From: Synechococcus sp. CBW1107
GTDB taxonomy: Bacteria > Cyanobacteriota > Cyanobacteriia > PCC-6307 > Cyanobiaceae
Direction of reading: 5' to 3'
DNA: 64,000 bases
Assembly: GCF_015841355.1 (NCBI RefSeq)
Contig: NZ_CP064908.1
Coordinates: forward strand, 1,860,001 to 1,924,000
The stretch's first letter is position 1; every line of letters starts with the position of its first letter. Shown here piece by piece: positions 36,537 to 62,787 of this stretch. Below the pieces are notes generated by a model, which was not told where the DNA came from, searched no databases, and saw only the letters and a program-made list of their open reading frames with translations. A program made the translations under genes and the position numbers.

Positions 36537-38441
36537 ATGACCCCCCGAGCGATCACCTGGCTGCGGCGCTATGGAGTGTTCGTGGTCTGGGCCGGCGCCT
36601 GTGCCCTCGGCTATGGACTGTTCCCGGACATCTACGAGCATTGGCAGCTGGATCTCTCCTCCCGCACCCAGGAACTGCGCGGACCACGCAAGCCACCCTC
36701 CGGGGTGGTGATCGTCGGCATCGACGACTACAGCCTTGTGCAGGGTCAGAACGCCGACCTCAGCCAGGACAAGGACCTGCGCCGCCTTGCTGACTGGCCC
36801 TGGCCCCGCGCGATCTACGACCGAGTGCTGGATCGTCTCTTCTCAGCCGGTGCCCGGGTGGTGGGCTTCGACCTTCTCTTCGATGCTCCCAGCAGCCACG
36901 GCCCGGAGGATGACGCGGCCCTGGCCGCCGCCCTGCGCCGCCACAGCGGCAAGGTGGTGCTCGGGGCCCAGGTGTTCGAGAGCCGCGGCCGGGTGGGCGG
37001 CCTCACCCTCAGTGCCGCCATGCCCTTCCTCAGCGAGGCTGCCGGTCCCCGCAGCTCGGGGCTGCTCAATGGCCTCCAGGATCCCGATGGCTACATCCGC
37101 CTGCGACCCAGCACCTATGCCGAGCAGCTGCGGCAGTCGGGGATGCTGGATGTGCCGGTGGGCCTCTCCAGCCAGCTGATCGCCAAGGGCCGCGTGGCCG
37201 AGATTCCGCCACCGCCGATCCTCGCCAGCTGGCGGCCTCTGGTGGACCCCTACGGCCCGCCTCGCACCATCCCCACGATCCCGATCTGGGAGGTGCTCGA
37301 GTCGGGCAGCTTCGCCCGTCTCAAGCAACAGGGCACCTTCCGCAACCAGGTGGTGCTGATCGGTCCCACCGCCAGCGTGCTCCAGGACATCCACCGAACG
37401 GCCTTCGCCGGCGCCGAGGGCATGCCCGGCGTCGAGATCCACGCCGCCGAGATCGCCAACCGTCTGGAGGGACGTGCCCTTTACATCCCCCCCAACGCCT
37501 GGTACCTGGCTCCCTTGCTGGGGTTCCTGGTGCTGGCTCTCGGCCTGGCCAGCGCCCGGGCGGAGAAGCCGCAGGTGCGGCTTGGAGCCCTGGCGCTGCT
37601 GGCCGGAGCGATGGTGCTTCTGGGGCTGATCCTGCTGAGCAGCACCGGCGCCGGCATCGGTCTGCTGGGGATCTCCGCTCTCATCCTTGCCACCGGCCTG
37701 GTGAGTGCCGGTGATGCCACGGTGAGGCTGCAATGGAACCGGTTGCGACTGCGCCGGATGCTGGAGCGCTACCTCTCACCGGCGGTGGCGGCCCAGATCG
37801 CCAGCCAGCCTGAGGAGGCCGATGAACTGCTGGGGGGCAAGGTGTCGGAGGTGGTGGTGTTCATCTGCGACGTGCGTGGCTTCACCCAGCGCACCACCAA
37901 GATGAGCAAGGAGGGTAAGGCCACTCAACTGGTGCAACAACTTAATGAATATTTTGCCGTGGTTGTTGATACCCTCCAGCGCAAGGGAGCGATCATCGAT
38001 AAATATATGGGCGATGCTGTGCTCGCTGTCTTCGGGGTGCCCCTGAACCGGGGGATGGAGGTGGAGGTTCAGTCGGCTCTGGAGGCGATTCTGGAACTTC
38101 AGGACCAGATGGAGGCCCTCAACCAGCGCTGGGCCGCCCAGGGAAAGGACCCCTGGGAGCAGGTGATGATCCTGAGCGGCGGGCCTGTGATCAGCGGGAA
38201 CATCGGCTGCGCCTCTCGGATGGATTACACCGTGATCGGTGACACCGTCAACATGGCCAGTCGCCTGGAGGGGGTGGCCAAGCAGTCGGGACGCGACATC
38301 ATCCTCAGCCGTGTGGTGGCTGAGCATGCTTCTCGCGAATGGGACTTGGAGCGGGTGGGTGAGTTCGAGATCCGCGGCCAGGAAGCCCAGGAGGTCTTCA
38401 CGATGAAACCGAGGGAACATTATGAGCGGAGTCAGGGCTAG
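36537..38441 (+). CDS. CHASE2-domain class III adenylate/guanylate cyclase
   Basis: A 634-residue transmembrane cyclase. An N-terminal hydrophobic segment is followed by an extracytoplasmic CHASE2 sensor (about 50-315, including VVIVGIDDYSLVQGQ, DWPWPRAIYDRVLDRLF and FRNQVVLIGPTASVLQDIHRTAF). Three helices (about 320-395) lead to the cyclase domain (about 430-625). Metal-binding residues Asp445 (FICDVRGFT) and Asp493, and base-reading Lys489 (DKYMGDAV), are present, as is the MDYTVIGDTVNMASRLEG block, so it should be active. The Lys plus following features favour adenylate cyclase. It lies 13 bp after the cNMP-binding glutaminase and 30 bp before a FecR gene. Confidence 0.93.
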   Translation: MTPRAITWLRRYGVFVVWAGACALGYGLFPDIYEHWQLDLSSRTQELRGPRKPPSGVVIVGIDDYSLVQGQNADLSQDKDLRRLADWPWPRAIYDRVLDRLFSAGARVVGFDLLFDAPSSHGPEDDAALAAALRRHSGKVVLGAQVFESRGRVGGLTLSAAMPFLSEAAGPRSSGLLNGLQDPDGYIRLRPSTYAEQLRQSGMLDVPVGLSSQLIAKGRVAEIPPPPILASWRPLVDPYGPPRTIPTIPIWEVLESGSFARLKQQGTFRNQVVLIGPTASVLQDIHRTAFAGAEGMPGVEIHAAEIANRLEGRALYIPPNAWYLAPLLGFLVLALGLASARAEKPQVRLGALALLAGAMVLLGLILLSSTGAGIGLLGISALILATGLVSAGDATVRLQWNRLRLRRMLERYLSPAVAAQIASQPEEADELLGGKVSEVVVFICDVRGFTQRTTKMSKEGKATQLVQQLNEYFAVVVDTLQRKGAIIDKYMGDAVLAVFGVPLNRGMEVEVQSALEAILELQDQMEALNQRWAAQGKDPWEQVMILSGGPVISGNIGCASRMDYTVIGDTVNMASRLEGVAKQSGRDIILSRVVAEHASREWDLERVGEFEIRGQEAQEVFTMKPREHYERSQG

Positions 38442-38471
38442 CCTGACCTTGATGGCTCATCTTCAAGCTCC

Positions 38472-39185
38472 ATGAACCACCGCCTGGTTGCAACGTTTGG
38501 CGGACTGCTTCAGGTTGGCCTTCTCCAGGCCGTGTTGATGGTGCCAGCCGCCCCGAGTCATGCGGCGGCCTTCGAGCAGGCCACCATCAAGCGGCTTGTC
38601 GATGGTCGTGAGGTCTACATCGACGGCAAGGCCGCCCGGGTGAATGAAGTGGCCCGTTCCGGCCAGCAGGTGCGCACCGGCAAGAGTCGCGCTGAGCTTC
38701 TGTTTGATGCCCGCGCCACGGGCTTCCTGGGTCGCTCGAGCGTGATCACCCTTGGCAATGCCTGCTTCCGCCTCAGCAAGGGCGCGGTGCTGGTGAGTGG
38801 ACCCCAGAAGGCCTGTCTCGGCACCAAAGTGCTGGGGGTGAAAGGCACCACCTATGTCCTCACCCGCGCCGATGACGGACTGTTCGACTTCGTGGTGCTG
38901 GAGGGGCAGGGGTATGTGGGCCCTGAAGATGGTTACGAGGAGAAGCAGGACTCCACCACCTCCGGTTCAGCAGCGGGTGCGGCCGGGGATCCCTCGGGCA
39001 ACACCACCTATGTCTGCCGCTGTGAAGTGGCCCGCTTCACCGCCGACGGCGAATTCGTCAGCCAGGGCAAGCTCAGCCGCAGCCAGTACCAGGCTCTGCT
39101 GAGCCTGCACACCTCCGGTCAGAGTCAGCTGGGCAAGAGCGCCGAGATCAAGGACGCCTTCTCGGAGTGCTACAGCGGCAGCTGA
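38472..39185 (+). CDS. FecR-domain exported protein, operon partner of cyclase
   Basis: A 237-residue protein with a signal peptide (about 1-33, ending VPAAPSHAAA) and a FecR-like domain (about 40-140): IKRLVDGREVYIDGKAARVNEV, GKSRAELLFDARATGFLGRS, CFRLSKGAVLVSG and LGVKGTTYVLTR. The C-terminus has several Cys (CRCEVARF, ECYSGS). It is exported, so it could sense or modulate the extracytoplasmic CHASE2 part of the cyclase directly upstream. It is a clear paralogue of the FecR protein starting at 62788. Confidence 0.85.
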   Translation: MNHRLVATFGGLLQVGLLQAVLMVPAAPSHAAAFEQATIKRLVDGREVYIDGKAARVNEVARSGQQVRTGKSRAELLFDARATGFLGRSSVITLGNACFRLSKGAVLVSGPQKACLGTKVLGVKGTTYVLTRADDGLFDFVVLEGQGYVGPEDGYEEKQDSTTSGSAAGAAGDPSGNTTYVCRCEVARFTADGEFVSQGKLSRSQYQALLSLHTSGQSQLGKSAEIKDAFSECYSGS

Positions 39186-44752: not shown

Positions 44753-45403
44753 GTGGGAAAGCAGATTTTTGATTGGTCAGCTTCAGGCACGGTATCACCT
44801 CGAACGTTTGCTTGGCTGAGCTGTCTTGCGCTTGCCGGATGGATGTTCAGTGGCTTTACGGCTGTGGCCCAATCGCTGCAAACCACCCAGACGTCCACCA
44901 TTGGCTCGGTCGTGAACTACGACAACAACTGGGCTCAGACCTTCTCTGTAACGGGTGGGGAGCTCACCACAACCAATGGTTCTGCACAGATCCAGCCCTT
45001 CGCCAAAGTGGAAGGCTCGGATCACCTGAGATTTCCGAACTCGGGTACAGCCGAGTTCAAGGCGTCGGTGACGAACCTCAGCGACGAGGGAGGCTACACC
45101 AGTGGCAATGCCCAAATTAGCGGACTATCCATTAACAGTGTGGTATTGAATCCTTCGAGCCAAAACGGCGTTCCTGCGATCGTGATTCTCACAAGCAGCC
45201 CAAACGTGGGGGCTGGCTTGCAATCACCCTGCATCGAAGGCACGATAGCTGACAGCAGTTGTCCCACCGCCACCAGCCCCACGCCTTTGGCTGAAAGTGT
45301 GCCCACAGGCGCCAGCATCATCGGCGACAACATCGGCACTGAGAGCATTCAGGTTACCGGCACGCAGAGCACTTCCATCACTAATTCACTCACCGTGTTC
45401 TGA
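44753..45403 (+). CDS. exported protein A of a four-gene unknown operon
   Basis: A 216-residue protein with a signal peptide (hydrophobic about 20-40, ending SGFTAVAQS). The mature part is Ser/Thr/Asn-rich with many predicted beta strands and one Cys pair (SPCIEGT, DSSCPT). The C-terminal segment TGASIIGDNIG through ITNSLTVF ends in Phe. The same layout, GASI..EN.G....TG....NSLT.F, and an earlier VVLN.SS..G element recur in the minus-strand protein at 53580-54197, so the two are paralogues. The start is a GTG; no stronger start is seen. No known family was recognised. The next gene overlaps its stop (TGATG). Confidence 0.72.
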   Translation: MGKQIFDWSASGTVSPRTFAWLSCLALAGWMFSGFTAVAQSLQTTQTSTIGSVVNYDNNWAQTFSVTGGELTTTNGSAQIQPFAKVEGSDHLRFPNSGTAEFKASVTNLSDEGGYTSGNAQISGLSINSVVLNPSSQNGVPAIVILTSSPNVGAGLQSPCIEGTIADSSCPTATSPTPLAESVPTGASIIGDNIGTESIQVTGTQSTSITNSLTVF

Positions 45404-45954
45404 TGAGACGCCGCAGGCTCCAGCTACACAAATCCCAGGCACGCGTCCTGTTTCAGAGAATGGGCCTCTGCCTGATGGGGCTGCTTCCGCTGGCCTGCCT
45501 GCCTGCCGCCTTCGCTCAGAGTGCCACAGTCACGGACGTGCGGGTCACCGGCGTGAATGCCAGCTTCGCCAATGGGGGGGGCTTCACGATTGTCAGTGAT
45601 GGCAGCCTCTCCTATGGCGGCCCCCTCAACGCGATCCGTTCATCCGATCCCCCCAGCCTGCGCATCGTGCTGAACGGAGAGGAGCTGCTCAATGGCGTGC
45701 CTGCTCCCGTGGCCGAAGCGCTTCCCCTGGGCACCGTGCGCTCGAATGTACTGAGCCCCGAACTGCAGGATGCGAAGCTGAATCTGGATCAATCACCGGC
45801 GGCGGTGGTGCTCGGCATCGGCGGCACGGTAGCCACCTACACGGCGGCTGGGGCTACGGTCCAGACGCAACGAATTGAATCAGTGGGGGGTCAAGCATTG
45901 AGCATCTTCCCCGATCTGCTGCCTAGTGTGTTCAACCGTGGGGTGCTGCGATGA
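45403..45954 (+). CDS. exported protein B of the unknown operon
   Basis: A 183-residue protein with a twin-basic N-terminus (MRRRRLQLHK) and a signal sequence ending LPAAFAQS (about residue 40). The mature region is Gly/Ser/Ala-rich with likely beta strands (TVTDVRVTGVNASFANGGGF, AAVVLGIGGTVATYTAAG). No cysteines and no known domain were found. It is coupled by overlap to genes on both sides (TGATG before, ATGA after). Confidence 0.68.
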   Translation: MRRRRLQLHKSQARVLFQRMGLCLMGLLPLACLPAAFAQSATVTDVRVTGVNASFANGGGFTIVSDGSLSYGGPLNAIRSSDPPSLRIVLNGEELLNGVPAPVAEALPLGTVRSNVLSPELQDAKLNLDQSPAAVVLGIGGTVATYTAAGATVQTQRIESVGGQALSIFPDLLPSVFNRGVLR

Positions 45955-46430
45955 CCCAGGTTAAACGTTCGTTTCAGCTGGCCGGCAGCCTGCTTTTGCT
46001 GGCTGTCTCCTGCTGGCCGAGCAATGCCGCTGCCCAGATCACCGTGGGGTATCGCAATCCGATCTTCGTGAATCAGAGCCGCACGCGCGAACAGCGCCAA
46101 GGTGTACGGACCACTCGGCGCTTTGAGGTGTCTGGCATCAATGTCAAGCCGCTGGACGGCAGTTTGATCTACGACGAAGACACCATCTGGACGATCTCGG
46201 AACCTGGTAAGCCGTTCTCGCTCACCGTGCTGGATCAGAATCCACTGGTAGAAACCCGTCAGACCTCGATTCAGGCGGAAACCTCCCAGGCCGCTCGCAC
46301 GGAGCGGGTTTTTGTGCAGGTCACCGGCCCGGCGGCGGAAGCGCTGCGATCGCCCTTTGAGAATCAGCAGCGCCAAGAGGATCTGCTGCTTGGAGTTCCT
46401 CCCAGCCTGACCAGCGTCTTCGGCCCATGA
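45951..46430 (+). CDS. exported protein C of the unknown operon
   Basis: A 159-residue protein with a clear signal peptide (AGSLLLLAVSCWPSNAAAQ, cleavage near residue 28). The mature part begins ITVGYRNPIF and contains charged and Thr-rich stretches (SRTREQRQGVRTTRRFEVSG, VETRQTSIQAETSQAARTERVF). The C-terminus is PPSLTSVFGP. No known family. It overlaps the preceding and following genes by 4 bp. Confidence 0.68.
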   Translation: MTQVKRSFQLAGSLLLLAVSCWPSNAAAQITVGYRNPIFVNQSRTREQRQGVRTTRRFEVSGINVKPLDGSLIYDEDTIWTISEPGKPFSLTVLDQNPLVETRQTSIQAETSQAARTERVFVQVTGPAAEALRSPFENQQRQEDLLLGVPPSLTSVFGP

Positions 46431-46843
46431 TCCACTCCACGTTTTGCCGCCGGCTGCCGCCACAAGACCGGCCTCGCCTTCGCGGTTCTCTGCTGCTGTC
46501 TGGCCTGCTGGCCCTTCTGCCTGCGCTGTTGATCTTGCCAGCGTGGGGGCAGCGGGTTCCCAATATCACCGGCTGGAGTTTCAACTTTTCCTCCGGTCGT
46601 GGCGGCCAGAACCGCAGTACGGCCGGAGCACTGAGTAGCAGCGATGGTGTGCAGGTGGTGGTGGAGCCGGGCAACACCGAACTGATCCAACGTCCTGATG
46701 GCACGTTCGCCTATCGCATTCTGGATCCCAATCAAAAGTTCGGCTCTGCCTTGCAATCCCGAACCAGCAGTGAACAATCTCGAAGCAACACTTTTGGCAT
46801 TAGTGAATTCAGAGATTTTGGCTATTCGGTGTTCATTCCTTAA
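46427..46843 (+). CDS. exported protein D of the unknown operon
   Basis: A 138-residue protein with an N-terminal signal segment (LLLSGLLALLPALLILPAWGQ). The mature part is rich in Ser, Gly, Asn and Arg (WSFNFSSGRGGQNRSTAG) and ends DFGYSVFIP. No cysteine in the mature part and no recognised family. It is the last gene of the four. The downstream 98 bp lead to the convergent frameshifted methyltransferase. Confidence 0.65.
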   Translation: MIHSTFCRRLPPQDRPRLRGSLLLSGLLALLPALLILPAWGQRVPNITGWSFNFSSGRGGQNRSTAGALSSSDGVQVVVEPGNTELIQRPDGTFAYRILDPNQKFGSALQSRTSSEQSRSNTFGISEFRDFGYSVFIP

Positions 46844-46941: not shown

Positions 46942-47833
46942 TTATCTCGTGGCATTCTCAACAAAGTCAGGAGCGAGCGTTGTTCCGTTTTTCATATCAT
47001 GGTGAGCCAGGCAGTAATAGGAAAGATCTGGACTGCCATAAACAGCAGCAAGCACGCTTAGCTTGAGTAGTTGCTGAGCACCTAGATTCTGGATAGCCTG
47101 GATATGGCGGATGAACACTGCGTCTGACCAGATATGTTGAGAAGGCAGATTGGGATCATTGTTGATTACTATGGGCTTGAGCGCCCTGCCTGCGAGGCCA
47201 AGAAACTTATGGAACATCAATTGATGCTGATCCAGGAATGTGCAGACATCACCAAAAAGAGGCTGCCCCACATAATGTGAAATGAACTCCACCTCACAGA
47301 CGAGTGCCAAAACGCTTTTCAGCGCTTCTATTCCACCTTTAAACACGTCTAGCTCTGCACCTTGAATATCAATCTTGATAAAGTCGGTTTCGGATATGCC
47401 ATTCTCGCGAGCAAAATAATCCATGCTGACTGTATCGATCACGCCCTTGCGCTTGAGATAGGCAACCTCAAAGTTATTGTAGAGGCTGATTAAGGCTTGG
47501 TTCGGCTCGTACAAGCTGCAGCACATAGGGTGATTGGTTATATAGAAGTCGCGACGCTCGTTCCTTTCGCCAAGTGCGTTCGGATAATACCTCACACCGG
47601 CCTTCGCTTTTGCATTCATCTGGTTGCAGAGATCTTCATCGACTTCAAAGCCGATAATCTGAGAGCCTGGGAAAAGATCTAGCAGTGGGTAGAATGGCTC
47701 AGGGTTTCCTTCGATCTGTAAGGCTCCGAAAGGCTCCGATTTCCATTATCGTGAACTTTAGCTCAGGGCTTTCGGCAAGAATGATGGACGCCAGTTGCGC
47801 AAGCATGGTTTTGAATTTCTTTCCTGTCGTCAT
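46942..47833 (-). pseudogene. FkbM-family methyltransferase broken by a 10-bp duplication
   Basis: On the minus strand an ATG at 47833 opens a frame beginning MTTGKKFKTMLAQLASIILA and running to MEIGAF before going out of frame and stopping. The rest of the gene continues in another frame (PEPFYPLLDLFPGSQIIGFE, then the 225-codon frame ending at 46942 with SMDYFARENGISETDFIKID and QGAELDVFKGGIEAL). At 47721-47740 the 10-mer AGGCTCCGAA/AGGCTCCGAT is repeated in tandem. Deleting one copy joins the frames as MEIGALQIEGNPEPFYPLLD. FkbM enzymes methylate sugar hydroxyls. It may be a recent mutation or an assembly error. Confidence 0.78.
47721..47740. repeat. 10-bp tandem duplication causing the frameshift
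   Basis: AGGCTCCGAA is followed directly by AGGCTCCGAT. Ten bases shift the frame by one. The length difference exactly explains the broken methyltransferase frame. Confidence 0.7.
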
Positions 47834-49538: not shown

Positions 49539-52500
49539 ATGTTGCAGCGCCCCCCGCCGCCTCTGAGACTTTTTGGGCCAAATCCACTGATAGAATCGTC
49601 TGAAGCCAAAGCAGTTCGAGTCATGCCAAGCCAGATGTCAACCATCGCAGTTGAGCTGGTAGATGGCATCAAGGTCGTCGTGCCTAATTCGCTCGAGCAC
49701 ATCACATCTTATGTGCTTCAGGAGCAGGGAGACTGGTTTGAAGATGAAATCAAGTTTCTTCGTGGCCTTATTGAGCCTGGCGATACCGTCGTGGATGTCG
49801 GAGCCAACTATGGAGTCTACGCCCTCTCTTTGGCAAAGAAAGTAGGTCCATCTGGGCAGGTGTGGGCCTTTGAGCCGGCCGCAAATACAGCAGGGTTGCT
49901 CGCAGAAAGTGCATCAGCCAATGCCTTGAATTGGCTTAAGGTGGTGCAAAAGGCGCTATCAAATCGCGAAGGTATTGCCTGGCTGCAGACGCCAGGGCAG
50001 TCTGAACTGAATAGTCTGGCCAGCCTGGATTCCCAAAGCGCTGCCTCGGTGGTAGGGCCTGGAGAGGATGTTCAAGTGTCCACACTTGACGCCTGCCTGC
50101 AGCGATTTAAATGGGCTAATGTGGATCTGCTCAAGATTGACGCTGAAGGAGAGGAGGAACGCATCCTGCTCGGAGGAGTGCGCTTCTTTCAGGTCCTTTC
50201 CCCGTTGGTGATGTTCGAGGTGAAGGCGGGAATAGAGCTGCATTTGGACCTAGTCGCCAGATTTGAAGAGATTGGCTACCAGTGTTTTTATCTTGTTCCT
50301 GGACTAGATGTTCTGCTTCCCTTTGATCCCGCTGATGGCGTGGATGGTTATCTGCTGAATTTATTCGCAGCCAAACCGGAGCGGATCAAGCGTCTGGCTG
50401 CCGCGGGAAAACTTCTAGAACATGCAGAGAGAGTCCAAGTCTATGAAAAACCTGATTATGAATCGTGGATTTGTGATGTAAAAAATCAACCTTATGTTCG
50501 TAGCCTTTCACTTCAATGGGATGGAACAGCTGCACAGCCAGAACAAAGCGCCATTCGTCAAGCATTAGCTTTCTGGAGAGCCTCTCAGGATTGCAGTTCG
50601 CCGATTGCTAGGCGTTATGTAGCCCTTGCGGAAAGCTTTGCTTTGCTGAAGAAAGAGTGCCAACCAGAATGCCCTAGTACCCGCTGGGCAAGCCTTGCAA
50701 GAGTGGCGATGGCTCTTGGCATGCGCCAAGTCGCAATGCAGGCGGTGAACATGCTGCTCCATGAGGTTCAGTTTGGCGGGGATGTTCTTCACGATGAACC
50801 TTTCCTCTGCCCCGACCCACATTTTGACACTGTGGATACCGAAAATAGGATTGATGACTGGCTTGAAGCTGCTTCGTTGTCGGCAGCCGAAAGATTTGGC
50901 AGTTACTCAGGATTTTTTTCTGGTGCATCAGCAGTCCCGAGACTTGAGAGACTGGCTTTTCTCGGTTTTGGCAAGGAGGTTATACAAAGGCGCATCGATC
51001 TAGTAAGCAAACGTTTTGGCACTGGACTGATGTCTGCTGCTGCTGCTGCTGCTACTGCTGCTGATCGGCTGCCTTCACGGCAGGCCACGCAACCAAACAC
51101 TGCTTCAGCCACGCTGCAACAGAACAAGCAGCAGGCCATGGAGCTGATCGGGGCCGAGCGCTACGGCGAAGCCCAGCAGATCTATGAGCAGCTGCTGGCC
51201 TCCGGCCAGGCCGATGCCCAGGTGTGCACCAACCTGGCCGCCCTGCACCAGATCGCTGGCCGCTCGGCTGAATCGATTCCGCTGCTGGAGCGAGCGATCG
51301 CCCTGCAGCCCGCCTATCCCGAGGCCCTGCTCAACCTCGGCAATGCGCTGCAGTCAGGCGGCCGCTCCGAGGAGGCGATCACCGCCTTCCGCCAGGCAAT
51401 CGCCCTCAATGCCGCCCTGCCCGAAGCCCACACCGGCCTGGGCGTGGCCCTACAAGACCGCGGCCAGCTGCAGGAGGCGATCGACCACCACCGTGAGGCG
51501 CTGCGGCTCAGGCCGGCCTACGCCGCCGCCTGGTCGAACCTGGGTGTGGCCCTGCGCAGCCGCGGTGATTGCCGCCAGGAGGCGATCGCCGCCTTCCGCG
51601 AGGCGCTGCGCCTCAAGCCGGCCTATCCCGAAGCCCTCTCCAACCTCGGCATCGCCCTGCTGGCCGATGGCCAGAGCGAGGCGGGGCTCGCCAGCCAGCG
51701 CCAGGCGATCGCGCTCAACCCCAGCCTGCCGCAACCCCATCTGCATCTGGGCGATGGGCTGCGCGAGCTCCATCGCCTGCCGGAGGCGATCACGGCATAC
51801 CGCACGGCTATTCAGTGCAAGCCCGATGAGGCCGGCGCCTACGCCGGCCTGGCTCTGGCCCTGCAGGAGCTCGGTGATCTGGAGCAGGGCCTGCTGGTGG
51901 CGGAGCAGGGGCTGGCGATCCGGCCCGACTGGCTGCCGATCCACTGGAGCAGGATCAAGATTCTCGACGAGCTGCGCCGGCCAGAAGAGGCGCTTGAGGC
52001 GAGCGAGGACCTGCTGCATCTGCAGCCCGACAATGCCCGGGGCCACCTTGCCCAGGCCGCTGTGCTCGAGACCCTGAAGCGCTACGCGGAAGCCCATGCG
52101 GCCCTTGATCAAGCGCTGCAGCTTGATCCCAGCTTGTCTGAAGCCCATTACTGCCGCGGCTGGATGCGGGCGGGGGAGGGTGAGACCCAGGCCGCGATCG
52201 ACGCCTACAGGCAGGCGCTGGAGCTGAAGCCTGGTTCCTATGAGGCCGGCTGTGCGCTGTTTTTCACCGAATTGTTTCTCCGCGGCGAGCAGGGCGAGCG
52301 CATCCGCGCCGATGCGGAACAGTTCTGGGCCCGCTTCCCAGCCGCTGCCGTGGCCCCCTTCCCGCCACGGGCGGCGCTGGCCGCCCAGGCCCTGGCCGCT
52401 GCCGCACCGATTCGGCTGCTGCTGCTCTCGGGCGACATCGGCGACCATGCCGTGAGCTGCTTCCTTGAGCCGTTGTTGCGTGGCCTCGATCGCCGTCGTT

Positions 52501-53498
52501 TTCAGCTGGTGCTGGCCCTCAGCCACCGCCGCCGCGAAGCCCGCGCCCGAGACCTGGAGCAGCTGGCGGATGAGGTGGTGGATCTCACTGGCCTGGGGGA
52601 GGCGGAAGCGGTGGCGCTGCTGCGCCGCCAGGGCTGTGCCGTGCTGATGGAGACCAGCAGCTGGACAGCCCACAACCGGCTGCCGGTGCTGCGCCACCGG
52701 GTGGCGCCGGTGCAGTGCCACTACGTGGGTTTCTGCGGCAGCACCGGCCTGGCCAGCATGGATTACATGATCGGTGATGCGGTGCTGACGCCGCCCCAGC
52801 TGCAGAACCAGTTCACGGAACGGCTCTGGAGCCTGCCCCGCTGCTGGTCCACCTATGCCCCCACCTTCACGCCGCCACCCCTGACTGACCGCCTGGAAGG
52901 CGCGCCGCTCACCTTCGGATCCTTCAACAATCTGCTCAAACTCACCGACCGCTGCGCCGACTTCTGGGCGGCGGCCCTGCAGGCGGTGCCGGCGGCCCAG
53001 ATGCTGATCAAAGACGGCAAAGCCCTTGAGCCCTCCGTGCAGAGCCGTGTGCGGCGGCAGTTGCAGAGCCGTGGCGTGGCGCCCGAGCGGCTCAGTTTCA
53101 TCGGCCATGTGGCCGACTGGCATGCCCACATGGACCTTTACAACCGGGTGGACATCGCCTTCGACACCACACCGATGACCAGTGCCACCACCGGCTTCGA
53201 GGCGCTCTGCATGGGTGTGCCGCTCCTGGCGATCCAGAGCGACTGGATGGGCGGCCGCATGAGCTCCTCCGCCCTCACCGCCCTGGGCTGCGCAGACTGG
53301 ATCAGCCGTGAGCCTGCGGCCTTTGCGGCCCAGGCCGCTGAGCTGGCCGCCAGCAGCGAGCGTGTGCCCAACCAGCTCAAGCGGCAGTTGCATCGGCAGG
53401 TGCGCGCCTCTGAACTCTGGGATGGCGCCTCCCTCTGCCGTGCCCTGGAGCAGGCCTTCGAGCAGATGCTTCAGCAGTGCGCCAGCGGCGGCAGCTGA
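49539..53498 (+). CDS. FkbM methyltransferase-TPR-O-GlcNAc transferase (GT41) fusion
   Basis: A 1319-residue three-part protein. Residues about 50-265 are an FkbM-type SAM methyltransferase (DVGANYGVYALSLAKKVG, VWAFEPAANTAGLL, VDLLKIDAEGEEERILLGG). Residues about 270-495 show no known domain. An Ala-rich linker coded by CTG/GCT repeats (about 500-508) precedes TPR repeats (about 525-910) and a GT41 catalytic domain (about 930-1319: HRVAPVQCHYVGFCGSTGL, FGSFNNLLKLTDRCADFWA, AFDTTPMTSATTGFEALCMGVPLL). GT41 enzymes add sugars to Ser/Thr of proteins. The start could be the ATG at 49623. The first part is AT-richer than the TPR-GT41 part, as if two genes had fused. Confidence 0.88.
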   Translation: MLQRPPPPLRLFGPNPLIESSEAKAVRVMPSQMSTIAVELVDGIKVVVPNSLEHITSYVLQEQGDWFEDEIKFLRGLIEPGDTVVDVGANYGVYALSLAKKVGPSGQVWAFEPAANTAGLLAESASANALNWLKVVQKALSNREGIAWLQTPGQSELNSLASLDSQSAASVVGPGEDVQVSTLDACLQRFKWANVDLLKIDAEGEEERILLGGVRFFQVLSPLVMFEVKAGIELHLDLVARFEEIGYQCFYLVPGLDVLLPFDPADGVDGYLLNLFAAKPERIKRLAAAGKLLEHAERVQVYEKPDYESWICDVKNQPYVRSLSLQWDGTAAQPEQSAIRQALAFWRASQDCSSPIARRYVALAESFALLKKECQPECPSTRWASLARVAMALGMRQVAMQAVNMLLHEVQFGGDVLHDEPFLCPDPHFDTVDTENRIDDWLEAASLSAAERFGSYSGFFSGASAVPRLERLAFLGFGKEVIQRRIDLVSKRFGTGLMSAAAAAATAADRLPSRQATQPNTASATLQQNKQQAMELIGAERYGEAQQIYEQLLASGQADAQVCTNLAALHQIAGRSAESIPLLERAIALQPAYPEALLNLGNALQSGGRSEEAITAFRQAIALNAALPEAHTGLGVALQDRGQLQEAIDHHREALRLRPAYAAAWSNLGVALRSRGDCRQEAIAAFREALRLKPAYPEALSNLGIALLADGQSEAGLASQRQAIALNPSLPQPHLHLGDGLRELHRLPEAITAYRTAIQCKPDEAGAYAGLALALQELGDLEQGLLVAEQGLAIRPDWLPIHWSRIKILDELRRPEEALEASEDLLHLQPDNARGHLAQAAVLETLKRYAEAHAALDQALQLDPSLSEAHYCRGWMRAGEGETQAAIDAYRQALELKPGSYEAGCALFFTELFLRGEQGERIRADAEQFWARFPAAAVAPFPPRAALAAQALAAAAPIRLLLLSGDIGDHAVSCFLEPLLRGLDRRRFQLVLALSHRRREARARDLEQLADEVVDLTGLGEAEAVALLRRQGCAVLMETSSWTAHNRLPVLRHRVAPVQCHYVGFCGSTGLASMDYMIGDAVLTPPQLQNQFTERLWSLPRCWSTYAPTFTPPPLTDRLEGAPLTFGSFNNLLKLTDRCADFWAAALQAVPAAQMLIKDGKALEPSVQSRVRRQLQSRGVAPERLSFIGHVADWHAHMDLYNRVDIAFDTTPMTSATTGFEALCMGVPLLAIQSDWMGGRMSSSALTALGCADWISREPAAFAAQAAELAASSERVPNQLKRQLHRQVRASELWDGASLCRALEQAFEQMLQQCASGGS
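51034..51063. repeat. CTG trinucleotide repeat coding an Ala linker
   Basis: Six CTG units, one CTA, then three CTG units lie in a row. They are read as GCT/GCA codons giving a poly-Ala linker between the methyltransferase half and the TPR-glycosyltransferase half. Such repeats can change length by slippage without breaking the frame. Confidence 0.75.
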
Positions 53499-53579: not shown

Positions 53580-54197
53580 TCAGAAGGCCGTGAGAGAGTT
53601 GATCACGGTCAGGCTGTCGGTGAAGCTGCCTGTGACGCCGCTGGCGCCTTGATTCTCTGCTGTGATGCTGGCACCAACGACGCCGGTATCGGTACCAGCA
53701 CCGATGACGGTGATGCCCGCAGCCGAGGATTGGTTCAGCACCACAGCCGTAGGGGTGGCGAAGATAATGGACGAGGTAGCGGTGGTGATGCCACCGGTGC
53801 CACCCTGGCCTCCCAAGGGAACGATCGCCGCCTGCACCGCGAACGAAGGGGTTGCCAGTGTGCTACCGGTGTTAGTGGTGGCGCCGAATCCGTTGCGGTC
53901 GAAAGAAGCCGTCAGGGTGGAGGTGCCGGCATTGCCTTCAAGAACCCCAACACCCGTGGCAGACAGGGCGGTGTTAACGGCCGTGACCTGGAAGGGATTG
54001 AGCGAGCTCGGGGTATTGCCGAGCACTTCGATCGACTGGCCGTACTGAAGGTTGTAATCAGCACCAGCCTCGAAAGTCTGGGTGCTGTTGCCGGTGAGGC
54101 TGGGGCCAGCCAGCGCTTCGGACATCATGGAGCCTTGGCCAATGGCGGCAAGGCCTGCGCCGGCAACGGTGAGGCTGAGCTTGAGCTTGGGATTCAT
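53580..54197 (-). CDS. exported Ser/Thr/Gly-rich protein, paralogue of protein A
   Basis: A 205-residue protein from the ATG at 54197 (a longer frame starts at 54227). A signal peptide KLKLSLTVAGAGLAAIGQG precedes a cysteine-free mature chain rich in Ser, Thr, Gly and Ala, predicted all-beta (for example GTSTLTASFDRNGFGATTNT). The C-terminal VGASITAENQGASGVTG to INSLTAF matches the end of the protein at 44753-45403, as does VVLNQSSAAGI. A terminator follows its stop. Many Ser/Thr residues would suit O-glycosylation by the adjacent GT41 enzyme (inference). Confidence 0.75.
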   Translation of the reverse strand: MNPKLKLSLTVAGAGLAAIGQGSMMSEALAGPSLTGNSTQTFEAGADYNLQYGQSIEVLGNTPSSLNPFQVTAVNTALSATGVGVLEGNAGTSTLTASFDRNGFGATTNTGSTLATPSFAVQAAIVPLGGQGGTGGITTATSSIIFATPTAVVLNQSSAAGITVIGAGTDTGVVGASITAENQGASGVTGSFTDSLTVINSLTAF

Positions 54198-54295
54198 TGG
54201 AGTGAACGGCGTGAGAACATGGGCCAAGTGTGGGCCTTAGTGCCGGGTGCAGTTCTAAGCGGAAAAAGGCCCAACCATTGACAGTTTTTGAAGCT

Positions 54296-54756: not shown

Positions 54757-56250
54757 TCAGGGATCGCTCAGCAGTGACGGCATCACCCCATCGCGGTGAT
54801 GGGCGATCCAGGCCTGCTCCAGGAACTCCCAGACATCCCGCCCCTGTTGCCTGAGGGTAGTGGTGACCGTGAGCAGGCGGCTCCGGCAGATCGCACCTTG
54901 GCGGGATTGGACTCCTTGACTGATCTTGCGCTGAATCACCGATTGGCGCAGGGCACGTTCTGCGGCGTTGTTGGTGGGCTCTATTCCCTCGTTCTCCAGG
55001 AAGGTCCACAACCCACCTGTCACCTTCTGGAGCTGCTGGCACGTGCGCACTGTGCTGGCCCAAGGCGTTCGCTCGCCGCGCTGGTAGCCGAGCTCTACTA
55101 CCCGCTGCAGCGTGGTCTCAAAGGTCTGGCGGATCGGCCGGCAGCTTTGCTGCAAGGCGGGCCAGTCAATCTTTCCCTCCTTGTAGCGGTGCCAGTGGCC
55201 AAACAGCTGCTGCTGCAGGCCCAGCAGCTGGGCTCCGAATTCAGCGCTGGCGCCCGGGCGTTCGGCGATGGCCGTCAGGTCGCGGATCAGGTGCGCCCAG
55301 CACAGCTGGCGCTGCTTGGTGGGCAGGTGGTTGTAGGCCGAGAAGCGATCGCTCACCACAATCCCGCCAAAGGCGTTCCCCAGCAGCTCGATGGCAGCGG
55401 TCGTCGATCGACTCAGCCCTTGCACAAATACCGTCACCACGGCGGTGACCATGACCCACTGCCAGCCCCGCTTTCCAGTGGGATTGTTGCCGTCGGCATT
55501 GCCGGTGGGGGCGCCAGTTTCATCTACGTAGGCCACCGGCTGCACGCGGGCAAAAGCAAGGGCCTCCTGCATGGGCTGCTCCAGTGCTGCACTCAAGCGC
55601 TGGCGGACCCGTCCAATCGCGCCGCGGCTCATCTCCACTCCTACCAGCTGCTGGAGCAGGGCCTGGGTCTTGCTGAAACTCAACGGAAAGGCACTGCCCA
55701 GCAGGCCCACCAGTGCACTGAGCCTTGGGCCGTAGTGACTGGCCTCCACATCCGCCGGCAACGAGGCGCAGGTGCTGGTGGAACAGCAGGGGCAGACCAG
55801 GCGATGCAGCCGGTGCTCGATCACCAGCGGGGTAATCGGCGGGATCTCGATCACCTGATGGCGCAGGGGATCGAGATCCTCTCCCTGGAGCAAGGTGCCA
55901 CAGCGGCGGCAGGCATCAGGGTGGTGATCCACCACCTGATCCACCCGCTCGATCGACAGCAGCTCTGGTCCGGATCCGGGATGGCCCTGCTGGCCGCCCC
56001 GCTTGCGGCCACTGCCCTTGCGCCGTTCTGGCGGCTTAAAACCCAGACCATCACTGGAGGGAGGTTTGGATGAGTTGCGAGAGCTGCGTCCGATCCGCTC
56101 ACGCAGGTTTGCCAACTCGGTGGCCAAGGAGGTGAGTTGGCCGCGCAACAGCTCGATCTCCTGCTGCTGGGCGTTGATCAGCGCTCTGACGCTGGCGGGA
56201 GTTTCCAGCCAGTCGGCTTCTGGAATTCCAGCCGGATGTGCGGTCATCAT
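54757..56250 (-). CDS. IS66-family transposase (TnpC)
   Basis: A DDE transposase of about 497 residues. The N-terminus has the leucine-zipper-like segment RALINAQQQEIELLRGQL and the Pro/Arg region RSSRNSSKPPSSDG. A zinc finger is present (CRRCG, CPCCSTSTC). Catalytic residues appear in VAYVDETGAPTGN, IVVSDRFSAYNHLP and EGIEPTNNAAERALRQSV. TnpA and TnpB partners are missing, as in solo-TnpC IS66 members. Terminal inverted repeats could not be identified. The ATG at 56250 is preferred over the TTG at 56286. Confidence 0.88.
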   Translation of the reverse strand: MMTAHPAGIPEADWLETPASVRALINAQQQEIELLRGQLTSLATELANLRERIGRSSRNSSKPPSSDGLGFKPPERRKGSGRKRGGQQGHPGSGPELLSIERVDQVVDHHPDACRRCGTLLQGEDLDPLRHQVIEIPPITPLVIEHRLHRLVCPCCSTSTCASLPADVEASHYGPRLSALVGLLGSAFPLSFSKTQALLQQLVGVEMSRGAIGRVRQRLSAALEQPMQEALAFARVQPVAYVDETGAPTGNADGNNPTGKRGWQWVMVTAVVTVFVQGLSRSTTAAIELLGNAFGGIVVSDRFSAYNHLPTKQRQLCWAHLIRDLTAIAERPGASAEFGAQLLGLQQQLFGHWHRYKEGKIDWPALQQSCRPIRQTFETTLQRVVELGYQRGERTPWASTVRTCQQLQKVTGGLWTFLENEGIEPTNNAAERALRQSVIQRKISQGVQSRQGAICRSRLLTVTTTLRQQGRDVWEFLEQAWIAHHRDGVMPSLLSDP

Positions 56251-56309
56251 AGGCGGGTCTCTACCTGAGATGCAACCGGAAATCAAGCTGTCGTCAAGGG
56301 TTCAGCAGG

Positions 56310-56855
56310 GCCGATGTTCGCCGCGAGCTGTCACGCCCCCTGAACGGATACGACCTGGTGGAGCAGGCGCACAAGCTCAGGCCCGATCTGTTGATTGGCC
56401 TGTTTTTGCTGGATCCCGCCAGCCTGGCCTCCCCTCAGCTGCTGCAGTGCAGCGCCAACTGGATCATTGCTGATCGCGACATGCTCACGCCGGACCGCCC
56501 CTTGGTTCGGGCGATCAAAGCGGCGTATGGCGGTGAGACCTACCGCAGCCCTGCCGTATGCCTGGCCATGCAGGCCCTCATGACTGAGGGACCCCACGAC
56601 GCCAGCGCCGCCACCCTGCCGCGCCAGCACTGGTCGGAGCGGGAGGAACGGCTGCTGCTCCACCTCTGCGCCGGCCGCAGCAACCGGGAGATCGCCGACG
56701 CTCTGCACTACTCCTTGGCCACGGTGCGCTCCTATGTGCGCGATCTGATGCGCAAGCTGGGCTACTCCAACCGCATCAGCTTTGTACTCCATGCCACCAG
56801 CCTCGGTTTCCCGCCGCCGCCTGGCGCGGGCCCCACGCCAATCCCTGATCCTTGA
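56310..56855 (+). pseudogene. C-terminal remnant of a LuxR-type regulator
   Basis: The frame reads ADVRRELSRPLNGYDLVEQA, then HKLRPDLLIGLFLLDPASL, and a LuxR/NarL helix-turn-helix at the end: WSEREERLLLHLCAGRSNRE, IADALHYSLATVRSYVRDLM and RKLGYSNRIS. The only usable start in the fragment is a GTG at 56358, which would give a 165-residue protein with a partial receiver. It could still make a DNA-binding protein. The GYDLV part partly repeats the GFDLV part of the left remnant, so the two halves may come from different paralogues. Confidence 0.6.
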
Positions 56856-56944: not shown

Positions 56945-57183
56945 TGCCACTTAAAATCTTCATTATTGTTGTTTTTCAAAATTATGCTTTTAAATTACCG
57001 CCTCCTGACTTGTAATTATCGTCAGTTAACGCCCAAGCTGCTCCTGTGCCTGCTGGCTGCTGTGGGTCTGTTCGGATTGTCTTGGCTGACTCCCCGAGCC
57101 AGCCAGGCTCAGAGCGCCAGTGCCAATTCGGCTGCCAATTCCGCCGGTACCACGGTCAACAACCAGAACAATTCCCAGATTAA

Positions 57184-57189
57184 CACCAG
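57184..57189. repeat. target-site duplication, left copy
   Basis: CACCAG directly before the left IS end, matched by the same bases at 58436-58441 after the right end. Confidence 0.75.
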
Positions 57190-58435
57190 GGCACCTCGAA
57201 AAATCGTAAGACCGCTTGATAACGTCCGGATTTAGATTATACTAGGCCATACCGATTACATACTTTCTATGGGCCAGCGAGGTTTCTGGGACGAACAACA
57301 AAGAGTTGCAAAGCTCCAAGAGAAGAAGCCGGTTCTGATCCGTCTCGCAGAATCGATTCCCTGGGAATCTTTCCGCCCTTTGCTTGACAAGGGCTATAGC
57401 CAGGAGCGCAAAAGCAATGCTGGACGCAAGAGAATCGACCCACTGATTCTTTTCAAGATGCTGGTGCTCCAGCAGCTATTTAATTTAAGTGATGAAGAGA
57501 TCGAATTCCAAGTAAATGACCGTCGCTCCTTCGAGGGGTTTGTTGGTCTTGGGGTGATGAATGACATACCAGATGCCACCACAGTCGCCTTCTTCAGAGA
57601 GCGACTGCGCAAGGCGGGAGTTATCGAGGAACTCTTTGAGATGTTTGAGGAATACCTGCGCTCTCAGGGTCTCCAAGCCCGGGGTGGTCAGATCATTGAC
57701 GCGACTCTCGTCCCTGTTCCCAAGCAACGCAATACCCGCGAGGAGAACAAGGAAATCAAAGCCGGAAGGCTGCCAGAGGGCTGGGATGAAAACCTAGACC
57801 GCTTGCAGCAAAAGGATTTAGACGCTCGCTGGACACAAAAGAACGGCCTCAGTTACTACGGTTACAAGAACAGTATTTGCATCGATGTCGACCATGGATT
57901 CATACGCCGATATGCTGTCACTCCTGCCAATATCCACGACAGCCAGATGCTTCCACTTCTGCTTGATCCAGAAAACGAGCATGACTATGTCTGGGCAGAC
58001 TCAGCATATTCCGGCGAATGCTTTGATGCTCTTCTGAGTCTCGGTGGCTTCGAAAGCCTGATCCACGAAAAAGGCGCTCGCAATCATCCGCTTAGCGACG
58101 CAGCCAAGGAATTAAATCGTCTTAAGTCGTCGATCAGAGCTTGTGTCGAGCATGTCTTTGGCTGCATGACCATGTCCATGGGTGGAAAGCTGACAAGAAA
58201 GATTGGGCTAGAAAGGAACGAGGCTTGGTGGGGTCTCAAGAACCTAACATTTAATTTACTGCGCTATCTCCAGCGCTCTGCCCACGTAGTAGTGGTTGCA
58301 TGAGTCACTCATAGAAGTGATACGGTTCAGTGAAACTCGTCAATAGTTGATATAATGCTTTCTTGCGTAGCCGCCTCCATGGCGGCATTTTTATGTCCGC
58401 AAGATTTCCTATTTGTGCTGATTATTCGAGGTGCC
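57190..58435 (+). mobile_element. IS5-family insertion sequence, complete
   Basis: A 1246-bp element with terminal inverted repeats: left end GGCACCTCGAAAAATC, right end (reverse complement) GGCACCTCGAATAATC, 15 of 16 identical. It is flanked by direct repeats CACCAG at 57184-57189 and 58436-58441. Because the base next to each end is G/C, the border could be one base further out with a 4-bp repeat ACCA. It carries one transposase gene and looks intact. Confidence 0.88.
57269..58303 (+). CDS. IS5-family DDE transposase
   Basis: A 344-residue transposase. DDE residues are Asp144 (QIIDATLVPVPK), Asp244 (VWADSAYSGE) and Glu294 (ACVEHVFGCM). The N-terminal domain has RKRIDPLILFKMLVLQQLF and the helix GLGVMNDIPDATTVAFFRER, both typical of IS5. 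The C-terminus has GLERNEAWWGLKNLTFNLLR. No stop or frameshift is seen, so it should be functional. It lies inside the complete element at 57190-58435. Confidence 0.93.
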   Translation: MGQRGFWDEQQRVAKLQEKKPVLIRLAESIPWESFRPLLDKGYSQERKSNAGRKRIDPLILFKMLVLQQLFNLSDEEIEFQVNDRRSFEGFVGLGVMNDIPDATTVAFFRERLRKAGVIEELFEMFEEYLRSQGLQARGGQIIDATLVPVPKQRNTREENKEIKAGRLPEGWDENLDRLQQKDLDARWTQKNGLSYYGYKNSICIDVDHGFIRRYAVTPANIHDSQMLPLLLDPENEHDYVWADSAYSGECFDALLSLGGFESLIHEKGARNHPLSDAAKELNRLKSSIRACVEHVFGCMTMSMGGKLTRKIGLERNEAWWGLKNLTFNLLRYLQRSAHVVVVA

Positions 58436-58441
58436 CACCAG
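58436..58441. repeat. target-site duplication, right copy
   Basis: CACCAG directly after the right IS end. Restoring a single copy restores the host reading frame. Confidence 0.75.
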
Positions 58442-58957
58442 CACATTCTATGGCTTTGGCCCCGGCATCAACTGCCCCACGCCCACCCTCGCCGTTGCCG
58501 GCTTCAGCGGCAACGGCGAGGGCTCCAGTGATGGCGATGTGCTCGGCGCCACAGTCAACAGCAACAACTATGGCGGCATCGTGACGTTCACTTTGCCCAT
58601 CGGCGGTGCGAACGCAGAAATCTGCAAGGAGATCGGCAAGGCTCAGGTTCAGGCCTTGATGGCGAACGTGGCGCGTGCCACCATCGAGGCCAACAAAGTC
58701 CAAGCCGACATCAATCTCGTCACAGCCATCAAGTGCGTGGAACTGATGCGGGTGGCCACCCTCTCTGGTGTCTACGCCGAGATCTGCCGGGGTGTCACAC
58801 CCATCGGCCAGAAACCCCTTCCCCCGACGGCGAGCCAGGCGGCTCCCCTGCCAGGGCAGGCTGGATTGATCAGGCCGATGCCTCCCCGGGCTTCCCCCAC
58901 TCCACTCTCAGCCATCCCCCCTAACCAAACGCTTTCCTCAGCCTCAGAAGGTGCCTG

Positions 58958-59455
58958 ATGAGTCTTGCTTGGTTCAGGAGTCTTCTGCATAGAGAGCGCC
59001 TGTTGCTTCGTTGGCTAGGCCCCAGGCTGCTGCTCCCTGTTTTGCTGTCCACCCCTGCCGTCACCCCTGCCGCCCACGCTTCAACGTTCGAGATCTATTG
59101 CGTCAACAATTCCGATGGCACCTCCAGTTGTGAAGGCTGGGATGGCGGTGAAACTCTGGTCTGCACCCCCAGCAGTGGCGGAACCACCAGCTGCAGCTCC
59201 TCCAGCGGCAGCAGTTTCACCTGCGTGCGAGGGCGTGATGGCACCACCACCTGTGACACCGCCAGTGGCGGGGGACAGCAGCGTGTTGGCACCCGTTGCA
59301 TCCGCACAGGCCAAGGATCAATCAGCTGTGACGCCGATGACCCCCCAGCTCCGGATCTACTTCCTGGGCCCCGGCTGCCCAGCACCGGGCCTGATCTGGA
59401 TCTGCTGATCCCTCGCCTGAACGGAAGTCTGGAGATCCCCAGCCTGTTCCCTTGA
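58958..59455 (+). CDS. exported Cys-rich repeat protein
   Basis: A 165-residue protein with a signal sequence (LLLPVLLSTPAVTPAAHAS, cleavage near residue 41). The mature part has a degenerate repeat of two Cys per about 20 residues with DGT(S/T)SC or GTTSC motifs (CVNNSDGTSSC, CTPSSGGTTSC, CVRGRDGTTTC, CIRTGQGSISC), about four copies. The tail is Pro/Leu-rich and ends SLFP. Disulfide-linked repeats are likely. It overlaps the stop of the IS-split gene and so belonged to the same operon. Confidence 0.72.
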   Translation: MSLAWFRSLLHRERLLLRWLGPRLLLPVLLSTPAVTPAAHASTFEIYCVNNSDGTSSCEGWDGGETLVCTPSSGGTTSCSSSSGSSFTCVRGRDGTTTCDTASGGGQQRVGTRCIRTGQGSISCDADDPPAPDLLPGPRLPSTGPDLDLLIPRLNGSLEIPSLFP

Positions 59456-59624: not shown

Positions 59625-60083
59625 ATGGCCACCGAACGCACTTTTCTCGCCATCAAACCCGATGGGGTGCAGCGCGGCTTGGTGGGCGAGATCCTCGGCC
59701 GCTTCGAGCGCAAGGGCTTCAAGCTGGTGGGTCTCAAGCAGCTGGTGCCCAGCCGTGAGCTGGCCGAAAGCCATTACGGCGTGCACAGCGAGCGCCCCTT
59801 CTTCGCCGGCCTGGTCGAGTTCATCACCAGCGGCCCGGTGGTGGCGATGGTCTGGGAAGGGGAGGGGGTGATCGCCAGTGCCCGCAAGCTGATCGGCGCC
59901 ACCAAGCCCCTCGAGGCCGAGCCGGGCACGATCCGCGGCGATCTGGCGGTGAACATCGGCCGCAACGTGATCCATGGCTCCGATGCGCCCGAAACCGCCG
60001 TGTTCGAGATCGGTCTGTGGTTCCAGCCCTCCGAACTCAGTGACTGGACTCCCGCCGATCAGGTGTGGCGCTGCGAGGACTGA
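59625..60083 (+). CDS. ndk: nucleoside diphosphate kinase
   Basis: A 152-residue NDK transferring the gamma phosphate between nucleoside triphosphates and diphosphates. The start is the ATG at 59625 ([19 protein letters not shown]), fitting family length; earlier in-frame starts are not native. The phospho-His lies in [14 protein letters not shown], and the Lys/Tyr binding region is [17 protein letters not shown] FecR-cyclase pair follows after 41 bp on the same strand. Confidence 0.97.
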
Positions 60084-60124
60084 GTGTGCAGGCTGGGGCC
60101 TGGCGCAACCTCCAACCTGCAATC

Positions 60125-60814
60125 ATGGCCCGCCTCACTCCCCTCGTCCCCCTGGTGCTGAGAGGCACCCTGGCACTCAGCTGTGTTGCTCAGCTGGCGG
60201 AGGGCCTTCCGGCCGGGGCCCGCGGCGGGATGCCTGTCCTGCCCCAGGTGGTGGAGGTGCCCTCCAGGCCCGCTTACGTGACTCCGCCCAGGGGAACCGA
60301 GGCCGCCGCCCGCAGCGGGCAGCTCCTGGAGCCCGCCACCCTGCTGCGCACCCGCACGCCAGGGAGGCTGCAGGTGGCCTTTCCGGATGGACGCCGCTTC
60401 CGCCTGGGGGGAGACGCCCTCGCCCTGATCGGCCGCCGCGAGGTGGAACTCAGCCGCGGCCAGATCATCGGCTGGCTGACCCCGGGGCGGAACGCAGGTC
60501 CGCCCCTGAGGATCAGGACCCGGGTGGGCACCGCCTCGATCTCGGGCACCACGGTGTTCATCGAGGCCAGCCCGGCGCTTCTGCGGATCTTCAGCTGGGA
60601 AGGTCCGGTTGAGGTGGAGGCCCGCAATGGTCAGCGCTTCACCCTCAACACCGGTGAGGAAGTGGTGCATTCCGCCGGTGGCTGGAGTTCACCGCGTCGA
60701 CTGAGCCGTGCGGAGGCGGCTCGCCGACGCCGTGCCAGCTCCCTGCTCAACGGGTTCTCCACACCGATGGAGACCCTGCCCGAACTGGAGCGGCAACTCG
60801 ACCGCCTGCCGTGA
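60125..60814 (+). CDS. FecR-domain exported protein, partner of second cyclase
   Basis: A 229-residue protein from the ATG at 60125 with a signal segment (LVPLVLRGTLALSCVAQLAEG). A FecR-like domain follows (about 70-190): LRTRTPGRLQVAFPDGRRFRLG, VELSRGQIIGWL, IRTRVGTASISGTTVFIEA and FSWEGPVEVEA with RFTLNTGEEVV. This is closer to classical FecR than the other two FecR proteins here. It overlaps the following CHASE2 cyclase by 4 bp (GTGA). Confidence 0.85.
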   Translation: MARLTPLVPLVLRGTLALSCVAQLAEGLPAGARGGMPVLPQVVEVPSRPAYVTPPRGTEAAARSGQLLEPATLLRTRTPGRLQVAFPDGRRFRLGGDALALIGRREVELSRGQIIGWLTPGRNAGPPLRIRTRVGTASISGTTVFIEASPALLRIFSWEGPVEVEARNGQRFTLNTGEEVVHSAGGWSSPRRLSRAEAARRRRASSLLNGFSTPMETLPELERQLDRLP

Positions 60815-62661: not shown

Positions 62662-62787
62662 CGAGCAGGGCAGACGCCGCCACAATGAGGAATCTGCGGG
62701 GCAACCTCCGGCTCACGGCCGCTGGGCTCTGAGCCATCACGCCACCTGTCACGGTTCACGTCGTCAACACTCACGTCGTCAGCACCC

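Follow-up and report, generated by a model that had tools for sequence, protein, structure and literature searches.

We see an even chance that the gene quartet ORF1-ORF4 is the principal remnant of a cyanobacterial gene cluster for surface assembly, in which the assembly would be based on a protein here designated E, and of which phages would carry a reduced version. The quartet lies in the window, as we call the whole 64,000-nucleotide stretch analyzed (G000:C1:1860001-1924000), which comes from the complete 3.2-Mb chromosome of a freshwater-type cyanobacterium. The four genes are intact, overlap, and are all found on the forward strand. The preliminary description treated them as a four-gene unit bounded at 44753-46843. 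These limits are too narrow: the unit runs on to 59455 and has at least seven genes, three of which (D, E and F) sit 7-13 kb downstream (Table 1). From sequence comparisons, the full set appears to consist of ORF1-ORF4, D, E and F, and E is, among the sequences compared, the one component present in every version of the set.

Table 1. Genes of the cluster and of the elements interrupting it, in window coordinates.
Feature	Position	Strand	Description
ORF1	44753..45403	+	GTG start; predicted exported, 216 aa; tail NSLTVF; paralogue of D by profile comparison
ORF2	45403..45954	+	predicted exported, 183 aa; ...LLPSVFNRGVLR; weak tie to phage T4-GC 237 family
ORF3	45951..46430	+	predicted exported, 159 aa; tail SLTSVFGP; assigned to phage T4-GC 236 family
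ORF4	46427..46843	+	predicted exported, 138 aa; tail YSVFIP
FkbM-TPR-GT41 gene	49539..53498	+	FkbM methyltransferase + TPR + GT41 (OGT-like) glycosyltransferase, 1319 aa
D	53580..54227	-	predicted exported, 215 aa; tail NSLTAF; paralogue of ORF1 by profile comparison
IS66-family transposase	54757..56286	-	PF03050; inserted in the unit
E, 5' piece	56984..57189	+	signal peptide + ...AGTTVNNQNNSQINT (N/Q-rich head); stops at transposon
DDE transposon	57190..58435		inside E; transposase 57269-58303 on + strand, PF01609
E, 3' piece	about 58437..58958	+	FYGFGPGINCPTPTL...; assigned to family of phage T4-GC 235 (phrog_1755)
F	58958..59455	+	predicted exported, Cys-rich, 165 aa; ends IPSLFP

Re-reading of the sequence confirmed the overlaps at the three junctions of the quartet (TGATG, ATGA and ATGA). 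We consider the four to be real genes because three further genomes (G101, G194 and G199) have all of them in unchanged order, with homologues that are 27-50% identical to the window proteins; the one exception is the ORF4 homologue of G101, found at the far end of its cluster. As had been proposed, the four proteins belong to no recognised family, with no Pfam or NCBIfam match at a useful E-value, and their description as Ser/Thr-rich exported proteins was upheld. A signal peptide had been claimed for each. By a crude rule of our own (a hydrophobic core plus A-x-A), three of the four pass, while ORF4 fails although it has an evident hydrophobic stretch; across the window and G101 sets this crude rule was passed by 12 of 14 cluster proteins, versus 9 of 45 other window genes. 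Within the set, profile comparison identifies ORF1 and D as paralogues (probability 98.8, E-value 6e-17), and ORF4 is probably a member of the ORF3 superfamily (probability 25, E-value 7.6e-4).

The claim that at least two of the proteins end in a VF-type tail turned out to be an understatement, as all four carry [ST][VIA]F near the C-terminus (SLTVF, PSVFNRGVLR, TSVFGP and YSVFIP). We counted the tail motif in 28 of the 65 cluster proteins at 11 loci, which include homologues and so are not independent, and in none of 134 other genes at the same loci. E and many of the marine-type members lacked it in this count. Since the tail recurs across families that otherwise do not align, it suggests a shared recognition signal.

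Among the 22 E loci examined, all seven components were present in the window, in L009 (genome G101) and in L033 (G194); L034 (G199) had six of the seven, lacking D, with weak matches to ORF1 and ORF4. The G101 cluster is compact: homologues of ORF1-ORF3, then D, E, F and ORF4, all within 4.7 kb. F adjoins E in most relatives, and an F-like match was found at 14 of the 22 loci. In an alignment of 12 sequences from hosts and phages, and again in one of 35 rows, the four cysteines of E are invariant. With an E profile, we found the protein in 21 of 400 genomes of the family, that of the window included, in none of the 8 congeneric genomes listed, and in 15 of 388 genomes of the class, spread over several cyanobacterial families. 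Single-protein searches reached less far: ORF1 matched in 5 of 151 genomes at E-value <= 0.01, three of them marginally and convincingly only in the window genome and G101, and ORF3 in 2 of 151.

In Synechococcus sp. HJ21-Hayes (G217, L055), an intact E and F stand in a row with several more exported genes, tailed ones included. Marine-type E clusters encode exported proteins of 340-410 aa (L043 10866-13419, in tandem; L044 11850-13088; L038 12089-13114; L042 8691-9890) with no Pfam match, which are possible major subunits. In other cyanobacterial families, E lies beside exported proteins ending in HETSAGVR or HETAAGNR (L164 6707-7597, L165 5581-6024, L166 4974-6061), apparently a different partner set. 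A near-identical tandem pair of exported proteins (MKKLIGLLGAAGLLIPSAAMAGNIGNQTG...) also precedes the G101 cluster by 7 kb, in a partly masked stretch (L009 786-2377).

Two transposons and an FkbM/GT41 block interrupt the unit in the window. The interval from ORF4 to D contains a small FkbM gene, a sulfotransferase-like ORF that has no match in Pfam, and the FkbM-TPR-GT41 gene. These had been named alongside the quartet in the preliminary description. The small FkbM and sulfotransferase-like genes had no counterpart in the cluster stretches read in G101, G194 and G199; the FkbM-TPR-GT41 gene is found between ORF4 and D in G194 too. Given its recurrence at the same spot, glycosylation may belong to the system. 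The small FkbM gene (46942-47800) matches the C-terminal half of FkbM only, with the upstream sequence continuing in another frame, and may be decayed. An identical copy of the IS66 transposase lies at G000:C1:1845166 (L061, from base 3167). Between both transposons, just upstream of E, is a gene for a LuxR-type regulator (56358-56855), which may have lost its 5' end to the IS66 insertion. The DDE transposon has inverted ends (GGCACCTCGA/TCGAGGTGCC) and is flanked by a 6-bp duplication, CACCAG, at 57184-57189 and 58436-58441. Since it cuts E, the system is probably broken in this genome, and an intact E is probably not made. The GC3 of the cluster genes is 0.62-0.75 versus 0.89 for a gene we take to be speA, which fits acquired DNA and is no proof of it.

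Components of the set have relatives in cyanophages. The accessible part of a 2010 report (Sullivan et al. 2010; PMC3037559) lists T4-GCs 218, 219, 234, 235 and 237 as clustered, apparently mobile hypothetical proteins, present in all but one of 16 cyanophages; this “mobile hypothetical” cassette of nearly all cyanomyophages has been on record since then, without explanation in that part. The E protein of G101 (P0010) matches phrog_1755 at 8.5e-9, and E was the only component with a solid match in the Pfam, NCBIfam, PHROGs, PADLOC and PDB sequence searches. The cassette genes of phages S-SM2, P-SSM7 and S-ShM2 are annotated as T4-LIKE GC 237, 236, 235 and 234. In phage DSL-LC02, two small exported ORFs precede the E homologue, next to psbA/psbD. 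Of 50,697 phage records, 462 matched phage E, 380 its ORF3-like neighbour and 184 the first gene; these tallies include many near-duplicates and come nearly all from cyanophages, both myo- and podoviruses.

We ran HMMs built from phage sequences only on the 3,899 ORFs of the 22 host loci. The E HMM generally matched the host E proteins, the 3' piece of the window included (3.0e-10 with the seed, 2.8e-6 iterated), and the GC236 HMM matched window ORF3 at 3.7e-4 / 1.8e-4; these E-values, like those below, are local, as the sequence sets are small and the HMMER filters were off. Compared to 300 shuffles each, window E scored 37.8 bits (best shuffle 5.6) and ORF3 19.5 and 28.6 bits (5.8 and 7.2). 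The scores of ORF2 and ORF1 were barely above those of shuffles (ORF2 alone 9.8 bits, shuffle maximum 7.9), and ORF4 alone stayed under 5 bits. Direct profile comparison (hhalign) was weak for ORF3 with GC236 (probability 8.9) and negative for ORF2 and ORF1 with GC237 and for ORF4 with GC236. Further matches involve a distant cyanobacterial family, f12 (L167 and L168), with four tailed exported genes followed by E. The HMM of f12 gene 4 matches window ORF3 at 2.8e-7, and phage GC237 matches the first two f12 genes (1e-20 to 6e-18). Genes 3 and 4 are matched by the ORF4-family HMM (2.4e-5 and 8e-6) and gene 2 by that of the ORF2 family (1.6e-4); the ORF1 family reaches only 0.0025 with the f12 set. 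By these comparisons, the assignment of E to the T4-GC 235 family and of ORF3 to the T4-GC 236 family is well supported; the phage-family membership of ORF2 and ORF4 is weaker, and that of ORF1 and D poor.

Phage-type gene sets are also found on host chromosomes: three chromosomes of the genus g6 (G347, G261 and G279) carry GC237-, GC236- and E-type genes, two of them with a GC234-like gene, beside what we take to be respiratory-chain genes. An HMM of GC234, a Pro-rich protein with a membrane segment, matched only at L039 and L051 among the 22 host loci, and not in the window. A search with host E retrieved no relative from the viral contigs and no plasmid match; a scan of the viral contigs with phage GC236 yielded at least 569 relatives, of which 80 were kept. 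In the Vibrio jumbo phage vB_VpaM_sm033 (L060 3866-5405), an E-like protein (E-value 3e-4 against E of a marine host) lies next to an exported protein rich in Ser/Thr; the module may reach beyond cyanophages.

The families in common with cyanophages, the patchy spread of E (absent from the 8 other genomes of its genus) and a GC3 below that of speA could also be explained if the cluster were itself phage DNA, in the form of a cyanophage cassette either domesticated or in decay. We consider this unlikely: neither the stretch of the window that was read nor the surroundings of the clusters in G101, G194 and G199 contained phage genes for structure or replication; the hosts carry components beyond those of the phages (ORF1/D and F); E occurs in several cyanobacterial families; and host E was not found in viral contigs. 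Just as doubtful, in our view, is that the genes encode no structural assembly but secreted competition or phage-exclusion factors that resemble bacteriocins or mask receptors. Small, exported and rapidly diverging proteins are compatible with such a role, and copies in phages would suit superinfection exclusion; yet PADLOC gave no hit, the relatives' clusters read contained no immunity, protease or ABC-exporter gene, and the conservation of a multi-component set suggests an assembly instead.

A somewhat smaller probability goes to the idea that the cluster encodes a known type of surface fibre in diverged form: curli (type VIII secretion), a chaperone-usher pilus or a type IV pilus. The cluster proteins are small, exported and beta-rich, the interrupted cluster has a LuxR-type regulator as neighbour, the window genome has one CsgG-family gene, and pelagiphages carry curli genes with unidentified neighbours, according to the accessible parts of two reports (PMC7029224, PMC9599517). 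Against this, none of the cluster proteins had a curlin, CsgE, CsgF, pilin, chaperone or usher domain in Pfam and NCBIfam searches. The CsgG-family gene stands alone, with no curli genes beside it, 11 kb before the window start (L061 6255-7271; G000:C1 about 1848254-1849270). We rejected it as a link to the cluster: it is about 56 kb off in the window genome, elsewhere in G101, and absent by search from G194 and G199. The window also has repeated pairs of genes for a FecR-like exported protein and a CHASE2 adenylate cyclase (36537-39185 and 60065-63555; Pfam confirmed FecR and CHASE2/cyclase for 60065-62661). The downstream genes were tried as a module like that of pelagiphage curli and treated as chance neighbours, because a gene we take to be ndk intervenes and the relatives' clusters read lack them.

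Predicted structures gave no support to a known fibre either. Of the structure predictions proposed earlier for all four quartet proteins, we ran the monomer model of ORF3, and added that of E; both AlphaFold models are low-confidence. E (mean pLDDT 60.2, pTM 0.37) shows strands and one long helix, and ORF3 (mean pLDDT 53.1, pTM 0.30) only a short beta core, at residues about 28-70. Foldseek searches with the two models returned no PDB fold match at E-value <= 0.001. Matches of the E profile to CFA/I fimbrial proteins were discarded, as they involved an artificial or low-complexity stretch. A structural match to a pilus, usher or secretion system had been named as a finding that would count against a new system; none emerged from the PDB sequence and fold searches, nor from Pfam, NCBIfam and PADLOC, and the proposal of an undescribed exported system stands. 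Finally, the 7-13 kb separation in the window could mean that ORF1-ORF4 are an independent operon with D, E and F as chance neighbours, which is highly improbable given the seven genes within 4.7 kb in G101, the seven together in G194 and six of them in G199.

Returning to a surface assembly based on E, we envisage the following. The small proteins would leave the cytoplasm through Sec and stay mostly unfolded save for a short beta core, and the tailed ones would be recognised by their common C-terminal phi-S-V-F signal. E, with its four invariant cysteines, N/Q/S-rich head, beta strands and long helix, could be the outer-membrane base or anchor, on which the tailed proteins would polymerise or pack into an extracellular coat or fibre. 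The neighbouring GT41 may O-glycosylate them before export, a step suggested by its position adjoining Ser/Thr-rich exported proteins. Cyanophages with the reduced set (237-236-235-234) would alter the surface of the infected cell. With E cut, the assembly is probably not made in the window genome.

More tentatively, and with clearly less confidence than in the reading above, this undescribed system, with its four-cysteine E and its phi-S-V-F export/assembly tail, could be the cellular counterpart of the cassette of most cyanophages, from which an infecting phage would build a reduced version on its host to exclude rivals or gather cells. The bacterial version may reveal the purpose of the phage genes: as cyanobacteria that can be cultured, Synechococcus sp. 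HJ21-Hayes among them, have a fuller counterpart, the function of the cassette can be tested by gene removal. It would suggest that abundant marine viruses reshape the outside of the cells they infect. Our literature search, whose coverage left out subscription papers and preprints, found no publication joining the bacterial set with the phage cassette. Neither has a described function or family, and in this sense the system is new; its phage part was already known as hypothetical genes.

The phage cassette is the closest of the systems compared. Both sets comprise small exported SVF-tailed proteins encoded in one gene neighbourhood, with function undescribed in both, and they have in common E (GC 235 family), ORF3 (GC 236 family) and possibly ORF2 (GC 237). 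The bacterial set, in contrast, is chromosomal, has ORF1/D and F in addition, and in the window lacks GC 234 and is interrupted. The phage-borne curli modules of pelagiphages, whose proposed roles in the accessible parts of the reports include aggregation and superinfection defence (PMC7029224, PMC9599517, PMC9004378), are likewise a surface-fibre gene set on phages of marine bacteria. As described there, however, they are based on CsgG, CsgF and CsgA, families that are neither in the present cluster nor needed by its carriers. Lastly, the cluster proteins can be likened, by description, to the hypothetical proteins of the marine Synechococcus exoproteome, which the accessible text of their report (PMC4949707) presents as abundant, small (150-240 aa), exported and strain-variable.
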